Shown: positions 2,044-8,427 of the stretch, piece after piece | Position numbering within the stretch: position 1 is the stretch's first letter | Layout of the letters: every line of letters begins with the position of its first letter | DNA from: a virus | Length of the DNA: 20,730 nt | IMG/VR virus record: IMGVR_UViG_3300030104_005757 | Span: 1 to 20,730 of that record | Reading direction: 5' to 3' (one strand) | Notes under the pieces: generated by a model | The model's database searches: none | What the model was told of the DNA's origin: nothing | Seen by the model: the letters and a program-made list of their open reading frames with translations, nothing else | Made by a program: the position numbers and the translations under genes

Positions 2044-2445
2044 ATGAGTAAAAATGTAACACAAAGTAACACTATTAAAAAAAGGCTCTTTCTAGAGGCT
2101 CTAGAGAAATCATTGGGAGTGGTGGCTCCTGCTTGTAAAAGTGTAGGGATCTCTAGAACTACTTTCTATAGATGGTTACAAAGTGATAGAGAATTTAAGA
2201 ATAGTGTAGAAGAGATTGATGAAGTAGCATTAGATACAGCTGAGAGTGAGTTATACTCTTTAATTAAACAAGGTGTATTCCCAGCTATTTGTTTCTATCT
2301 AAAAACTAGAGGTAAAAGGAGAGGATATGTAGAGAGAAGTGAGATAGATGTAAGTAGTAAGGCTCCTGATCTTAGTGAACTATCTACAAAAGAGATAAAA
2401 GATTTATTAGAGAGTGGTACTACAAAAGGAATTATTAATAATTGA
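2044..2445 (+). CDS. terS: Terminase small subunit
   Basis: A 133-residue protein. Residues 24-50 carry an N-terminal helix-turn-helix (APACKSVGISRTTFYRWLQSD), followed by a long helix rich in acidic residues (55-76). The segment KQGVFPAICFYLKTRGKRRGY at about 75-95 is typical of phage small-terminase/HTH proteins, which recognise the packaging site and load genomic DNA into the large subunit. It lies directly upstream of terL and overlaps it by 32 bp, so the two are almost certainly cotranslated. A candidate promoter and a small hairpin precede it. Assignment rests on the HTH, the family-like tail and the position next to an unmistakable terL. Confidence 0.75.
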   Translation: MSKNVTQSNTIKKRLFLEALEKSLGVVAPACKSVGISRTTFYRWLQSDREFKNSVEEIDEVALDTAESELYSLIKQGVFPAICFYLKTRGKRRGYVERSEIDVSSKAPDLSELSTKEIKDLLESGTTKGIINN

Positions 2446-3766
2446 GTTAAAGAAAGAATTAGCTAGAAGATCTTTTTGGGACTTTTGTCTCTACTATGAT
2501 GAAGAGTTTTTTATTAAACGTGAATTTCTTAAAGAAGTTGCTATAGCTTTTGAAGATATTTATAATGGTAAGATCAATAGTTTAAGTGTATCAATGCCTC
2601 CTAGAGCAGGTAAATCTTACATCACTTCTTTATATTGTGCTTGGTTACTAGGTAAAGATCCTAAGTGTAGTGTAATGAGAAACACTTGTACAGCATCTCT
2701 ATATCTTAAATTCTCTTATGATGTTAGAGCCATCTTTAAGAGTGATAAGTTTATGAGTATCTTCCCTATAAGACTATCTCAAGATAAGAGTAATCTAAAT
2801 GGTTGGAATACTACTCAAGCTAAGATGGTTAGTTATTTTGGTGCAGGTGTTGGTGGTAGTATAATTGGCTTTGGTGCATCTAAAGTAGCTATAACAGATG
2901 ATCTATATAGAGGCTTAGAAGATGCTTTAAGTGATACTATTAATGATAGAATACTACAATGGAAAGAGGCCACACACGATAGTAGGCTAGAGAGTGGTTG
3001 TGCTAGAATTGATATAGGTACTAGATGGAGTGTTAAAGATCTCATAGGTTTACAAATAGAGAATAAAGAGTATGATAAATCTATTATACTAAAAGCATTA
3101 ACTAAAGAAGATAGATCTTTTTGTGAGGATGTAATGACTACTCAAGAATATCTAGATAAGAGAAAGAAAACAAGTAAAGAAGTATGGTTAGCAGAGTATC
3201 AACAAACGCCAATAGATCTAGAAGGTAGGCTATTTAACAAACTAAAAACAATATCTTTAAAAGAATATAATGAGATACATCATAAAAGTTTTGGCTGCTT
3301 AGGCTTTATAGATGTGGCTGATCAAGGTAAAGACTATCTAGCTATGGCTATAGGCTCTCTAATAGATGATAAATTATATATAGTAGATACTATATTTACT
3401 AAACAAAACACAGATCATACATTACCATTAGCATCTAGTATGCTTAATAAATATGATGTAAGATATTGTAGAGTAGAATCTAATAGTATGGGTGCTATGT
3501 TTAGCAGGATCTTACAAAAGCAAACTAAAACTAAAATCCTTCAAGTACATAACTCTACTAACAAGATCACTAGAATAATAATGCAAAGTGTCTTTATTCA
3601 AAATAATATGATCTTTGTAAAGAGAGATAATGATCCTAACTATATTCAATTTATGGATAATGTACTCTCATTTAGTAAGGAAGGAAAGAATAAAAATGAT
3701 GATGCACCCGATTGTCTGGCAGGTCTTTCTCTATTTTCTCAATCAATGTTTAAAAAAGTTTTTTAG
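2414..3766 (+). CDS. terL: Terminase large subunit (packaging ATPase and nuclease)
   Basis: A 450-residue protein with both terminase domains. Residues 11-30 (ELKKELARRSFWDFCLYYDE) match the usual N-terminal start. The ATPase has Walker A MPPRAGKS at 61-68 and a Walker B-like VAITDDLYR at 158-166, with Asp-Asp rather than Asp-Glu. The RNase H-like nuclease carries Asp300 (GFIDVAD), Glu355 (RVESN) and the C-terminal acidic cluster DDAPD at 429-433, all expected metal ligands. It pumps DNA into the prohead and cuts the concatemer. The start is uncertain: GTG 2414 overlaps terS by 32 bp and no ATG occurs before the Walker A motif. Unusually, the portal gene does not follow on the same strand. 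Confidence 0.93.
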   Translation: MVLQKELLIIELKKELARRSFWDFCLYYDEEFFIKREFLKEVAIAFEDIYNGKINSLSVSMPPRAGKSYITSLYCAWLLGKDPKCSVMRNTCTASLYLKFSYDVRAIFKSDKFMSIFPIRLSQDKSNLNGWNTTQAKMVSYFGAGVGGSIIGFGASKVAITDDLYRGLEDALSDTINDRILQWKEATHDSRLESGCARIDIGTRWSVKDLIGLQIENKEYDKSIILKALTKEDRSFCEDVMTTQEYLDKRKKTSKEVWLAEYQQTPIDLEGRLFNKLKTISLKEYNEIHHKSFGCLGFIDVADQGKDYLAMAIGSLIDDKLYIVDTIFTKQNTDHTLPLASSMLNKYDVRYCRVESNSMGAMFSRILQKQTKTKILQVHNSTNKITRIIMQSVFIQNNMIFVKRDNDPNYIQFMDNVLSFSKEGKNKNDDAPDCLAGLSLFSQSMFKKVF

Positions 3767-3835
3767 CTATAACACTATAAATCAATTAGTTACAAATTAT
3801 ATTAAAAAAAAGTTTAATTTTTTTCTCTTATATAG

Positions 3836-3865
3836 TTGTATATATAAATTTAATTTGTATATTTG
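3836..3865 (+). promoter_or_regulatory. Bacteroidota-type promoter (-33 TTG, -7 TATATTTG)
   Basis: TATATTTG at 3858-3865 matches TAnnTTTG exactly and is preceded by TTG (3836-3838) with a 19-bp spacer, the expected Bacteroidota geometry. Transcription would start near 3870, about 34 nt before the ATG at 3904. This is the best complete promoter seen in the window. It sits in the 137-bp gap after terL, which otherwise holds only AT-rich sequence and a weak A-run/T-run inverted repeat at 3804-3824. Confidence 0.6.
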
Positions 3866-3903
3866 AAGTGTTGAACAAATAAACATTATAAAAAAAACAA
3901 GTT

Positions 3904-4404
3904 ATGAAAAAAGAAAAACAAATTATTAAAGAGAATTACAAGAAGTTTTTAATTAACACCGATAAAAGTAGTGAAGGAGTAAAAATGTGGTGGGCGTTTA
4001 TTGATACTCAAGATAAAAATCTAGTAAAAGAAGTTGTAGAGAGTATGACAAAAATAGAGAGAAGATTGAGAGATTTTAAAGATGGTTTTTATTATAAAAC
4101 TAAAATTAGAAAATTTGCTAATCTTAAGTATTGGACTGATGTAGAGCCTTATGAAGTAGTTAGAGTAATAAGTGATAAGACTGTAGAAGTTAGATTAATG
4201 GATACTATTCAAACTAAAAGACCTGAGGCATTTGTAGTAGGTGGATTTGCAGCTCATTGTATTGATAACCATAACCAAGATTATAAATATATCTCAAATG
4301 AGAAAAATCCTATTAAAAGAATAAGAAAAGGTAAAAAAGGTTGGGGTAATGGTAAATATCAGATGAGTGATTACCCATTTAATTTTTATGATTATAATTT
4401 TTAA
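3904..4404 (+). CDS. Conserved hypothetical protein of marine-phage type (FYDYNF C-terminus)
   Basis: A 166-residue protein. The first half is charged and probably helical (KEKQIIKENYKKF; VVESMTKIERRLRDF). The second half is beta-rich: FYYKTKIRKF, YEVVRVISDKTVEVR, then AFVVGGFAAHCIDNHNQDY at about 108-126, and a basic stretch before a terminal FNFYDYNF. From memory, the GGFxxHC...FYDYNF pattern recurs in uncharacterised proteins of marine phages, but I know no function and assign none. The gene stands alone with its own promoter and a strong terminator (4418-4457), which fits a moron-type accessory gene between terL and portal. That this is a real gene is very likely. Confidence 0.65.
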   Translation: MKKEKQIIKENYKKFLINTDKSSEGVKMWWAFIDTQDKNLVKEVVESMTKIERRLRDFKDGFYYKTKIRKFANLKYWTDVEPYEVVRVISDKTVEVRLMDTIQTKRPEAFVVGGFAAHCIDNHNQDYKYISNEKNPIKRIRKGKKGWGNGKYQMSDYPFNFYDYNF

Positions 4405-4417
4405 TAATAATAGGAGT

Positions 4418-4457
4418 TGGCAGTAATCTCAGCGTAACAAAACTGCCATTTTTTTTT
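4418..4457 (+). terminator. Rho-independent terminator
   Basis: TGGCAGT (4418-4424) and ACTGCCA (4442-4448) form a perfect 7-bp stem around a 17-nt loop, followed at once by nine T residues (4449-4457). It begins 14 bp after the stop codon of the 3904-4404 gene. Confidence 0.8.
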
Positions 4458-4487
4458 AACTTTATAAACTATGATCTCAATAATGAA

Positions 4488-4712
4488 ATGAAATTAATAC
4501 TAGATATAGAGGCTTTTACTAGCTTATATAACACTAAATCTATTAGTGATATTACACCACCAATATTAAAATATAAATCATTTTCTATAGTAAAGTGTAA
4601 AATAAAAACTAATAAAAAAGGTGTAACAAAACTAAAAAAATGCACCATACAAGTTAATGGATTAGATAGTTATGATTGCATAAAAACACTTACTAACCTT
4701 TATGATTACTAA
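4488..4712 (+). CDS. Small hypothetical protein
   Basis: A 74-residue protein of unknown function with mixed polar and hydrophobic sequence, a lysine-rich centre (about 36-52) and two cysteines. No signal peptide, membrane helix or known motif is visible. It lies after a terminator, so it needs its own transcript. The only promoter-like sequence is TAACTTTA at 4457-4464, one mismatch from TAnnTTTG, overlapping the terminator's T-tract. Codon choice (AGA, ACT, AAA, TTA) resembles the neighbours. It is followed by the non-coding repeat region and converges with the portal gene. It is probably a real gene, but small-ORF uncertainty remains. Confidence 0.5.
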   Translation: MKLILDIEAFTSLYNTKSISDITPPILKYKSFSIVKCKIKTNKKGVTKLKKCTIQVNGLDSYDCIKTLTNLYDY

Positions 4713-4720
4713 TGATTCTA

Positions 4721-4790
4721 GCAATACTAAGCAATACTAAGTAATACTAAAACTTGTTAAGCAAAAGATAGCAAACTCTAGCAATTCAGC
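4721..4790. repeat. Degenerate 10-bp direct-repeat array (GCAATACTAA)
   Basis: Seven consecutive decamers: GCAATACTAA twice, GTAATACTAA, a diverged unit, then GCAAAAGATA, GCAAACTCTA and GCAATTCAGC. AGCAA, or AGTAA once, recurs at 4720, 4730, 4740, 4760, 4770 and 4780, exactly 10 bp apart, about one helical turn. The array is non-coding, between the 3' ends of two convergent genes. It could be a protein-binding iteron array, a replication or recombination site, or a decaying minisatellite. Confidence 0.7.
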
Positions 4791-4798
4791 CTGTAATA

Positions 4799-4828
4799 GT
4801 AAATGTAAATGTAAATGTAAGTGTAAGT
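4799..4828. repeat. Hexamer tandem repeat (GTAAAT x3, GTAAGT x2)
   Basis: Five tandem hexamers, three GTAAAT then two GTAAGT, end six bases before the portal stop codon. On the portal transcript they form its immediate 3' tail. No hairpin terminator was found in this convergent gap. Confidence 0.75.
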
Positions 4829-4834
4829 GTAGTA

Positions 4835-6040
4835 TTATAGTCCTAATATTTCTTTTTTCTCCTCTTCATTTAACTCTACTCCACTTTCTATGATCTTCTT
4901 TAATGCAGCTGCTCTAGTATCTAGTGCTTTAGCGTTTTCATTTTCATCATCTTGTAGTACAGGTAAATGACTAAAATCAGCCTCTAGATAATAACCTTCA
5001 TCACTTAAGCCTATTTGCTCTATGATATTATTATACATCATTTGAGTTTCAGGAATTATAGTATCAGTATAAGCCATTCTAATACCATCTCTTACATTAC
5101 TAAAGGTTGCTCCTCTCTCTTGAGAAAATACATAAATATTTAAACCATAAGCATCTACTATGGCTAATTTATCAGCGTTTAACTCTTCAAATAACATTAG
5201 ATCTTTAGTGGGAAAACTCATAGGTTGCCATTGTACATCTGCCTCAGTTATAATTAATTCATCTTTAGATCTACTATACCAGTCTCTTTGGATCTCTTTT
5301 CTCTCTTCTGGTGTCATTGGTATTGATCCACCTATATCATTATTCTTAGCTGATAATATACCTATAGATCCTATATTTTCTAATAGTACATTTCTTTTGT
5401 GGTAAGATGCTCTAATATTAGATAAAGGAAATCTTAAACAATCTATTCTACTCACAGGATTGATAAGATTAGTACCATCACTAGTCATTAAATACAAGAT
5501 CTCATCTATATCAAAAGTTTCTATTTTACCATCATCATATCTAAATTCAAAGTTTTTTATAAGTTGCTCAGCATCCATTTGTTTTAGTTTCTTACCTGTG
5601 GTATTAATTGTGATTCTATCACTAGGTAGAGGTACTAAAAGATTCACAATATCAAAAGATCTTTTAGGAGCATAAGCAAAAGAATTAGAGTATAGTGCAT
5701 CATTTATACTCATACTAAATACAAAATCCTTCCAATTTTGTCTAGGATTTGGTTTGTTAATTAAATCTAAAAACCAATGATTCTCTACTTTCTCACCATT
5801 TTTATCATATAAACACGGAATATTACTAGCCATCATAGAGGCACGTTTATTGACTACTGCTCTAAGTTCAGGTATCTCTATATAATGTTTAAAACTCTCT
5901 TCAGTATCTATCCATATAGCTGTCTTTTGTCCAAAGATTCTATTATATGGAGTATGAAAATTATCAATGTATCTAGGTAGTTTTATATTTGGAGATCCAA
6001 AAAAAGCGTTCCAAAAATTTAAAGGATTTTGATTAGTCAT
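4835..6040 (-). CDS. HK97-family portal protein, encoded on the opposite strand
   Basis: A 401-residue protein. Signature stretches include ELRAVVNKRASMMASNIPC at about 58-76, PNPRQNWKDFVFSM near 97-110, a SNSFAYAP segment, VPLPSDRITI near 136-145, and later EERKEIQRDW and FSQERGATFSNVRDG. These match HK97-type portals, the dodecameric ring at the head vertex through which DNA enters and leaves and to which the terminase docks. The length is normal. Every other recognised structural gene in the window is on the plus strand; only portal is reversed, between terL and the protease. It starts 58 bp from the protease start and has its own leftward TAnnTTTG element. The A-rich sequence before its ATG is typical of the host group. 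Confidence 0.9.
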   Translation of the reverse strand: MTNQNPLNFWNAFFGSPNIKLPRYIDNFHTPYNRIFGQKTAIWIDTEESFKHYIEIPELRAVVNKRASMMASNIPCLYDKNGEKVENHWFLDLINKPNPRQNWKDFVFSMSINDALYSNSFAYAPKRSFDIVNLLVPLPSDRITINTTGKKLKQMDAEQLIKNFEFRYDDGKIETFDIDEILYLMTSDGTNLINPVSRIDCLRFPLSNIRASYHKRNVLLENIGSIGILSAKNNDIGGSIPMTPEERKEIQRDWYSRSKDELIITEADVQWQPMSFPTKDLMLFEELNADKLAIVDAYGLNIYVFSQERGATFSNVRDGIRMAYTDTIIPETQMMYNNIIEQIGLSDEGYYLEADFSHLPVLQDDENENAKALDTRAAALKKIIESGVELNEEEKKEILGL

Positions 6041-6062
6041 TATTTTTTATATGAATTTTAAA

Positions 6063-6070
6063 CAAATTTA
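6063..6070 (-). promoter_or_regulatory. Candidate leftward -7 promoter element for portal
   Basis: On the minus strand this reads TAAATTTG, an exact match to TAnnTTTG. It lies 22 bp upstream of the portal ATG (6040) and back to back with a rightward element at 6073-6080. No clear -33 TTG at the ideal distance. Confidence 0.45.
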
Positions 6071-6072
6071 CT

Positions 6073-6080
6073 TAATTTTG
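6073..6080 (+). promoter_or_regulatory. Candidate rightward -7 promoter element for the capsid operon
   Basis: TAATTTTG matches TAnnTTTG exactly, 18 bp before the protease ATG (6099), so transcription would start near 6085. It is the only promoter candidate for the operon running to the terminator at 10973. No clear -33 element. Confidence 0.45.
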
Positions 6081-6098
6081 TTTTAATTATTCTAATTT

Positions 6099-7172
6099 AT
6101 GCAAAAATCAATAAATAAATATACACTAAAATCTAGTGGTCTAAATATAAAAGATCTTGATGATGATAAAAAAATAGTATCAATGTATCTTAACTCTTTT
6201 GATAATATTGATAGTGATAAAGATGTTATTAGAAAAGGTGCTTTTAAAAAATCAATTAAAGAGAGAGGGCCTGATAGTGCAAGTAATAGAAAGATAGCTT
6301 TTCTTAGATATCATAATTGGGAAATGCCTATAGGTAAATTCTTAGAACTAAGTGAAGATAATAATGGTCTTTATGCAGTTGCTCAATTAGGTAACTCTAC
6401 ACTAGGTAAAGATGCTTATGAAGATTATAAAGATGGAATAATTAGAGAGCATTCTATAGGTTTTCAATATGTTAAAGATAAAATAGATTATATTGAAGAT
6501 GAAGATGATGAAACTAAATCTTTTTACGAAATTAAAGAGGTTATTTTATGGGAAGGTAGTGCTGTTACTTTTGGATCAAATGAGTACACTAATGTATTAG
6601 ATGTATCTAAAGGATTACTACAAGAAGATAAAATAGAACAAGAGGCTAAAAAAATTAGTGATGAGTTAGATCTTTGTATTAAATCTCTAGCTAATGGCAA
6701 AGGAACAGATGATAGATTATATCAATTAGAAATGAAAGTTAAACTTTTAAACTCACAATTATTTACTTTAGCTACTTCTAATCCGTTTACTAAACAATTA
6801 GAGATAGAAAAGCCAAAAATTTATGATGGGTTTGATTGGCAAAAAGTTAATGATCTACTTTTAGAAAGTAAAGAAACTTATAGTGGTTATCCTCAAAAAG
6901 CTATATCTAATGCTAAAAAAGGTATAAAATTAAATGAAGAGGTAAATAACAAGTGTGCTACAGACGTGGGAAAACAAAGGGCCAGAGATATAGTTGCAAA
7001 AAGAGGTTTTAGCTTAGATACTCTTAAAAGAGTTTATAGCTATTTATCTAGAGCAAAAGAGTATTATAATCCTAATGATGAAAAAGCGTGTGGTACTATT
7101 TCTTATTTACTTTGGGGTGGTGAGGCTATGAGAGTTTGGTCTGAAAAAAAGTTAGATCAATTAGAAAATTAA
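6099..7172 (+). CDS. HK97-type prohead protease with an extra C-terminal domain
   Basis: A 357-residue protein, longer than the usual 170-220. Residues 25-170 are the serine protease: VSMYLNSFDNIDSDKDVI at the start, His72 in LRYHNWEMPIG, Ser119 in REHSIGF, and WEGSAVTFGSN at 151-161. His and Ser are the expected catalytic residues. The enzyme trims capsid and portal-associated proteins during head maturation. After a helical linker (about 170-240), residues 263-352 form a second, helical domain with YPQKAISNAKKGIKLNEEV, NNKCATDVGKQRA, VYSYLSRAKEYYNP and CGTISYLLWGGEA. I recognise this as a recurrent domain in phage proteins but cannot name its function. The ATG follows a candidate promoter, making this the first gene of the head operon. 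Confidence 0.9.
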   Translation: MQKSINKYTLKSSGLNIKDLDDDKKIVSMYLNSFDNIDSDKDVIRKGAFKKSIKERGPDSASNRKIAFLRYHNWEMPIGKFLELSEDNNGLYAVAQLGNSTLGKDAYEDYKDGIIREHSIGFQYVKDKIDYIEDEDDETKSFYEIKEVILWEGSAVTFGSNEYTNVLDVSKGLLQEDKIEQEAKKISDELDLCIKSLANGKGTDDRLYQLEMKVKLLNSQLFTLATSNPFTKQLEIEKPKIYDGFDWQKVNDLLLESKETYSGYPQKAISNAKKGIKLNEEVNNKCATDVGKQRARDIVAKRGFSLDTLKRVYSYLSRAKEYYNPNDEKACGTISYLLWGGEAMRVWSEKKLDQLEN

Positions 7173-7197: not shown

Positions 7198-8427
7198 GTG
7201 GAAAACACAAATTTAACTCCTGAGCAAGTGGTAGAAAAAATCACTAACTCTATTGAGGAGAAAACTCAAGGATTTGTATCTAAAAAAGATATAAACTCTT
7301 TTAAAGAAGATCTTAATGCTGTTAAAGAATTAGCTGAGAAAGATCACACTAGTGAATTAAAAACTAGTATTGCAAAGTTAGAAGGTCAAATAGAATCATT
7401 AAAAGAATCTTCTATTACTTCTAGTACTCCTAAATCTTTAGGTGGTGCTATTTGCGAATCTTATAGAAAAAACTTTGATAAGATTCAAGATGTAGTAGGT
7501 AAAGGTGGTGGATTAGTAGATCTACAAGTTAAAGCAGCTGGTACAATGACTATTACAGGTAACTATAGTGGTGGTACAGTTGGATTATCTAACTTAGAGA
7601 CTGGTCTATCTAGAGTTGTAAGACGGAGACCATTTTTAAGAGAGATTATTAATGTAGCTGGTACTACTTCTAAGTATGTAGTATGGATTGAACAAGCTAA
7701 TCCAGACCCAGGTGCTGCTGGTATGACTGCTGAAGGTGCTTTAAAAACTCAAAATGATTTTGATCTAGTTGAGAAATCATCTGAAGTTAAAAAGATCTCT
7801 GCTTGGATCAAAGTATCTAAAGAAATGATCGCTGATATTCCATTTATGGAAGGAGAAATCAATAACGAACTAATGGAATTGGTAGAGTTAAAACTAGATG
7901 AGCAAATTCTTTCTGGTAGTGGTGTAGGTGCTAACTTAACAGGTTTACAAGCTAATTCAACTGCTTGGACTGGTGGTACTTTTGCTAATACTATAGTAGG
8001 TGCTAATAATAGTGATGTTATTAGAGTAGGTATGGCCCAAATGGCAAATGCTAACTTTAATCCTTCTCATATTCTTATGAATCCTGCTGATGTAGCTGCT
8101 ATGGAACTTACTAAAACTACTACAGGAGAATACACTTATCCAATGTTTGTACCTCAAGCTGATGGTATTACTAGAGTTAAAGGTGTTCCAGTTATTGAGA
8201 ATAGTGGAGTAACTGCTAATCAATTTTATATTCTAGATGCATCTAAATCTAATTTAAGAGTTAGAGAAGATATGAATATTCAAGTAGGTTTTGTAAATGA
8301 TGATTTTACTAAAAACTTAGTAACTATTCTTTGTGAATGTCGTGCTACTCATTTTGTTAAAACAAATGATTATGGTGCTGTAATTTCTGGAGAGTTTGAT
8401 GTAGCAAAAGCTGAACTAGAGGCTTAA
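7198..8427 (+). CDS. Major capsid protein, HK97 fold
   Basis: A 409-residue protein. Residues 1-75 are charged and coiled-coil-like, fitting the scaffold-like delta domain removed by the upstream protease. From about 105 the sequence follows HK97 capsid proteins: FLREIINVAGTTSKYVVWIE, then KKISAWIKVSKEMIADIPFM, ELKLDEQILSGSGVG, HILMNPADVAAMELTK, VKGVPVIENSGV and FVNDDFTKNLVTILCECR near the end. It forms the icosahedral shell. The start is GTG at 7198, preceded by an A-rich stretch; no nearby in-frame ATG offers a better start. It lies 25 bp after the protease, as expected for the HK97 gene order. Confidence 0.92.
   Translation: MENTNLTPEQVVEKITNSIEEKTQGFVSKKDINSFKEDLNAVKELAEKDHTSELKTSIAKLEGQIESLKESSITSSTPKSLGGAICESYRKNFDKIQDVVGKGGGLVDLQVKAAGTMTITGNYSGGTVGLSNLETGLSRVVRRRPFLREIINVAGTTSKYVVWIEQANPDPGAAGMTAEGALKTQNDFDLVEKSSEVKKISAWIKVSKEMIADIPFMEGEINNELMELVELKLDEQILSGSGVGANLTGLQANSTAWTGGTFANTIVGANNSDVIRVGMAQMANANFNPSHILMNPADVAAMELTKTTTGEYTYPMFVPQADGITRVKGVPVIENSGVTANQFYILDASKSNLRVREDMNIQVGFVNDDFTKNLVTILCECRATHFVKTNDYGAVISGEFDVAKAELEA

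Follow-up and report, generated by a model that had tools for sequence, protein, structure and literature searches.

The portal gene of this phage lies reversed between the terminase and the capsid genes, and the arrangement is genuine and family-wide rather than an assembly artefact. From comparison of the sequences, we think it quite probable that the portal gene was inverted in place, together with its -7 box, in the ancestor of the clade, and that the inversion left behind what would be a compact bidirectional promoter. Few features of tailed phages are as conserved as the order of their head genes, which serves as a guide in annotation. The window (the whole stretch of DNA analysed, a linear viral contig of 20,730 bp) contains the following features:

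2044-2445, + strand: terS, terminase small subunit (PHROG 4044, E=1.2e-9)
2414-3766, + strand: terL, terminase large subunit, convergent with the portal gene (PHROG 38, E=1.1e-73)
3904-4712, + strand: two cargo ORFs of 166 aa and 74 aa in the tail-to-tail terL/portal slot
4418-4457, + strand: hairpin with a trailing U run, downstream of orf166 (MFE -11.4 kcal/mol, z -2.33)
4835-6040, - strand: inverted HK97-type portal, 401 aa (Pfam PF04860 Phage_portal, E=6.4e-28; PHROG 2662, E=6e-28)
6041-6098: 58-bp intergenic region from which portal and protease diverge
6062-6081: predicted near-palindromic two-way promoter core ACAAATTTACTTAATTTTGT, 20 bp
6063-6070, - strand: predicted -7 box TAAATTTG on the portal side, with a predicted start at ~6058 and an 18-nt leader
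6073-6080, + strand: predicted -7 box TAATTTTG on the side of the protease-capsid operon, with a predicted start at ~6085 and a 14-nt leader
6099-7172, + strand: prohead serine protease (Peptidase_S78), which opens the rightward capsid arm (Pfam PF04586, E=5e-26)
7198-8427, + strand: HK97-fold major capsid protein, MCP (Pfam PF05065, E=9.7e-36)

The product of 4835-6040 matches the portal profiles of both Pfam and PHROG, and with 98.3 bits against a curated cut-off of 39.1, over profile positions 3-304 of 321, it belongs to PF04860. The dN/dS of the portal is ~0.03-0.05 in the two clade pairs for which it was computed, which indicates purifying selection. An earlier note on this DNA had described the portal alone as reversed and running toward terL, and this description holds: an intact portal ORF lies on the minus strand, head-on to terL and divergent from the protease and capsid genes, and the other head genes lie on the plus strand, so that terL, portal, protease and MCP are not all co-directional. 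A second portal gene, for which the note had allowed, is absent from the window record, and each of ten related clade records (21-41 kb) has exactly one PF04860 match. The note had also allowed for an assembly error; the same inversion is found in 57 other non-redundant contig groups, with portal identity down to 43-78% and the flanking genes intact.

These relatives were collected by IMG/VR scans with the portal and the MCP, plus one genome scan. The resulting 172 non-redundant contig groups comprise 58 inverted groups (window included), 95 canonical groups, and 19 without both genes visible. Contigs with the MCP type of the window (at least 50% identity) and the portal in view are inverted, with L183 as the sole exception; the MCPs of the canonical contigs are more distant, at ~33-45% identity to that of the window. 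Twenty-four of the inverted groups form a displaced-capsid subgroup (L130, L143, L190-L193, L198, L200, L209-L215, L221-L237), in which the MCP gene does not adjoin the protease and is found downstream of the g170 and g234 homologues. A replacement of the MCP at the base of the clade was considered, as identity is 42-44% between groups and 52-68% within them, and the drop is larger for MCP than for terL or portal; it is not established because the MCP also evolves faster in general. A search for close cultured relatives returned none, the best phage records being ~24-29% identical, and the clade consists of uncultured tailed phages, probably of Bacteroidota. One canonical relative, L173, lies in a contig binned as Rhodobacteraceae; this binning is probably wrong, since the group has promoters of Bacteroidota type. 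The window protease is ~100 aa longer than most of its relatives (357 aa against a median of 253 aa), and a weak match to PHROG 2859 (E=0.003) covers its residues 270-351.

The divergent 58-bp gap before the protease, likewise reported in the earlier note, is present at 6041-6098, and it has counterparts of 39-68 bp, with three longer exceptions, among the 53 inverted contigs compared. A TAnnTTTG box points toward the protease in 51 of these gaps, toward the portal in 53, and in both directions in 51, against 3.0, 2.0 and 0.12 expected from mononucleotide shuffles in a comparison where the window is AT-rich and related contigs make the 53 gaps nonindependent (38 distinct sequences). Boxes of this form (TAnnTTTG, TAHHTTTG), a short leader away from a start codon, correspond to the -7 element of the Bacteroidota housekeeping (sigma-A type) promoter. 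The -7 consensus TANNTTTG and its distance of 4-5 nt to the transcription start are known from Flavobacterium johnsoniae (PMC6847099), the latter being the spacing used for the start predictions listed above, and the assignment of the element to sigma-A comes from F. psychrophilum (PMC9723704). The accompanying -33 element (TTTG/TTG) is weak or absent, and neither window box has a TTG at 16-24 nt spacing; this element is reported to be weak in mapped Flavobacterium promoters too (PMC6847099). A sigma-70 promoter scan of the locus gave no signal above shuffles. In the inverted gaps, the distance from box to start codon, mostly 21-33 nt, matches that of canonical portals, and the position of each box leaves just enough room before its start codon for a short leader. 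The 58-bp gap looks like a genuine, conserved divergent promoter region, whose activity we infer from its sequence. In favor of this reading, the core ACAAATTTACTTAATTTTGT is unique in the window and recurs exactly, at the divergent gap, in G006 and G009, and the 2-bp spacing of the boxes is fixed in most distinct window-like gaps.

The canonical relatives suggest where the portal box came from. A TAnnTTTG box precedes the portal in 55 of 81 of them, again mostly 21-33 nt from the start (2.6-2.7 expected); the corresponding counts are 0/78 for terL and 1/64 for MCP, and 14 of 76 canonical proteases have a box merely 12-15 nt upstream of the start codon. Of 17 displaced-capsid members, 12 have a box in the 80 nt that follow terL, mostly at 4-10 nt, which is near the position of the canonical portal box. 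In canonical relatives the portal thus already stands at the head of a promoter-led capsid operon; it kept its box through the flip, and the protease, which gained or moved one, has it at full leader distance.

The earlier note had read the locus differently: the inversion itself would have supplied a new portal promoter and placed the dosage and timing of the portal under a control separate from that of the capsid. Part of this stands, in that the portal is now a separate, divergent transcription unit with a box. The flip as the source of the portal promoter is, however, not supported, because unflipped portals have the same -7 box at the same distance. The claim that portal timing must be separate finds no support either, as both boxes are of the same housekeeping type and lie within the same 20 bp; joint timing of the two arms would be the simpler reading, and portal and capsid dosage could nonetheless differ. 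We therefore regard a promoter newly created by the inversion as unlikely.

The 20-bp near-palindrome could instead be an operator for a dimeric phage regulator, with the promoters elsewhere. Its dyad symmetry would fit such a site. So would its uniqueness in the window, since ACAAATTTACTTAATTTTGT has no further match in the window record. The spacing is also fixed in most window-like members, where the boxes stand back to back, 2 bp apart (ACAAAnnTA-nn-TAnnTTTGT); 21 of the 27 distinct gaps share an offset of 10. The symmetry nevertheless usually breaks exactly at the bases left free in TAnnTTTG, as it does in 15 of the 24 cores listed, an asymmetry that two promoter boxes fit better than an operator palindrome does. 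Furthermore, the box-to-box spacing ranges from 9 to 12 across gaps, the two boxes swap order in the displaced-capsid subgroup yet each keeps the distance to its own start codon, and the same box occurs singly before canonical portals. An operator is on these grounds decidedly improbable, and we retain the reading of two outward-facing -7 boxes.

The history of the flip was read from a portal tree, in which the inverted portals and L183 form one clade (support 85/99). Nine canonical outgroups served to root it, and they are fairly distant. The same clade has an SH value of 100 in FastTree. A tree with L183 outside the inverted clade is rejected (p=5e-9, an AU value that presumes that the model is correct and that the group was named beforehand), and L183 is therefore a reversal, the single one seen in the clade. 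With two very distant outgroups only, a free search roots inside the inverted set, and the tree with that set held together is 6.6 lnL better. A single change from canonical to inverted is the direction best supported by these trees, if not beyond doubt. The natural revertant itself (L183:1-2400) has its portal in the canonical direction again: its first 30 nt resemble the end of terL, after which come a small ORF and then portal, protease and MCP, all in one direction. Portal and protease still have a separate -7 box each, TAAATTTG before portal and TATTTTTG before protease.

A reversal inside the inverted clade is what would be expected if the portal were an invertible DNA segment subject to phase variation, but L183 is the sole exception against 58 inverted groups, the search for inverted repeats flanking the window portal gave nothing convincing beyond weak imperfect matches typical of AT-rich DNA, and the portal is expected to be essential either way, so that flipping would not silence it; a DNA switch is very improbable here. 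That the inverted portal is an assembly chimera, as the unrelated inverted-portal contig L286 might suggest, has practically no probability left: the inversion recurs over 58 diverse contig groups with intact genes, whereas in L286 terL is truncated, the protease is absent, and the joins share 8 bp. L286 (L286:1-5890) is likely a chimera or a defective genome; its portal is 97% identical to that of L174, and it makes a useful negative control.

The account that we favor is then as follows. A broad clade of tailed phages would descend from an ancestor in which the portal gene was inverted on the spot along with its own upstream -7 box, and it has retained the inversion since, one reversal apart. 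At the junction, two -7 boxes of the host housekeeping (sigma-A) type point away from each other, with 2 bp between them in most window-like members; firing to the left would yield a one-gene portal transcript and firing to the right would yield protease, capsid and later genes. Because RNA polymerase on one box would cover the other, occupancy would be mutually exclusive, with one direction served at a time, and both arms would switch on together; the portal to capsid transcript ratio would depend on how strong the two starts are relative to each other. Where terL and portal meet tail to tail, a slot for accessory genes arose. The sequences themselves show the inversion and its fixation across the clade, the two boxes with their positions, the box of canonical relatives and the accessory slot, whereas promoter activity, start sites, mutual exclusion and any influence on ratio or timing are inference. 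A stricter version, in which the element is an either/or promoter that fires the portal or the capsid arm and never both, fixes their ratio in the DNA, and has reached two geometries within the clade (abutting outward and crossed), is one that we put forward as no more than tentative.

The nearest functional precedent for a divergent portal is phage P2 (Peduoviridae), although the layout is different. As in the window, the P2 portal gene Q is divergent from the scaffold-protease and capsid genes O and N, with one shared promoter region (NC_001895 annotation). In P2, however, terL (P) travels with the portal and the portal does not run toward it, whereas here the portal alone is flipped and convergent with terL rather than in one operon with it. 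The P2 starts are also separated by ~111 bp, in which an activator site is annotated, while the starts predicted here are ~27 bp apart and the boxes leave little space for such a site between them. Among phages of Flavobacteriia, Polaribacter phage Danklef_1 and Flavobacterium phage filifjonk9-1 have homologous portals and HK97-type head genes in similar order, but their portals (~24-29% identity) are co-directional with the capsid genes and, in filifjonk9-1, also with the terminase. Bacterial promoters that fire in both directions from symmetric -10 elements have been described (PMC10268837), and they resemble the present core in that divergent starts arise from near-symmetric core promoter elements. 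In those promoters, however, the -10 elements overlap, the starts usually lie 18 bp from each other, and an antisense RNA is often produced; here there are two separate -7 boxes, two coding arms and predicted starts ~27 bp (window type) or a few bp (swapped type) apart. An inverted portal in HK97-type phages, or the combination described here, was not found in the literature searched, the coverage of which is incomplete.

These findings describe a broad clade in which an essential head gene has stayed reversed at a predicted two-way promoter of 20 bp that is highly conserved. The clade amounts to a natural experiment on the balance of portal and capsid, with a natural revertant included. Annotators should note that a portal in reverse orientation need not reflect faulty assembly.

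The slot between terL and portal (3767-4834 in the window, with equivalents elsewhere) carries accessory ORFs that are mostly co-directional and unrelated to one another. Across the clade, its length ranges from an overlap to 2683 bp, and in L108, L012 and L125 the facing ends of the two genes overlap or abut. The hairpin at 4418-4457 is a possible terminator of the terL-side transcript; a simple terminator scan of the locus found none above shuffles, and the loop of this hairpin is too long for that scan. In the terL/portal gaps of L191, L198, L209 and L245, a -7 box lies ~10 nt after terL and is followed ~60 nt on by a hairpin-like repeat with a T run, an arrangement that could encode a putative short RNA.
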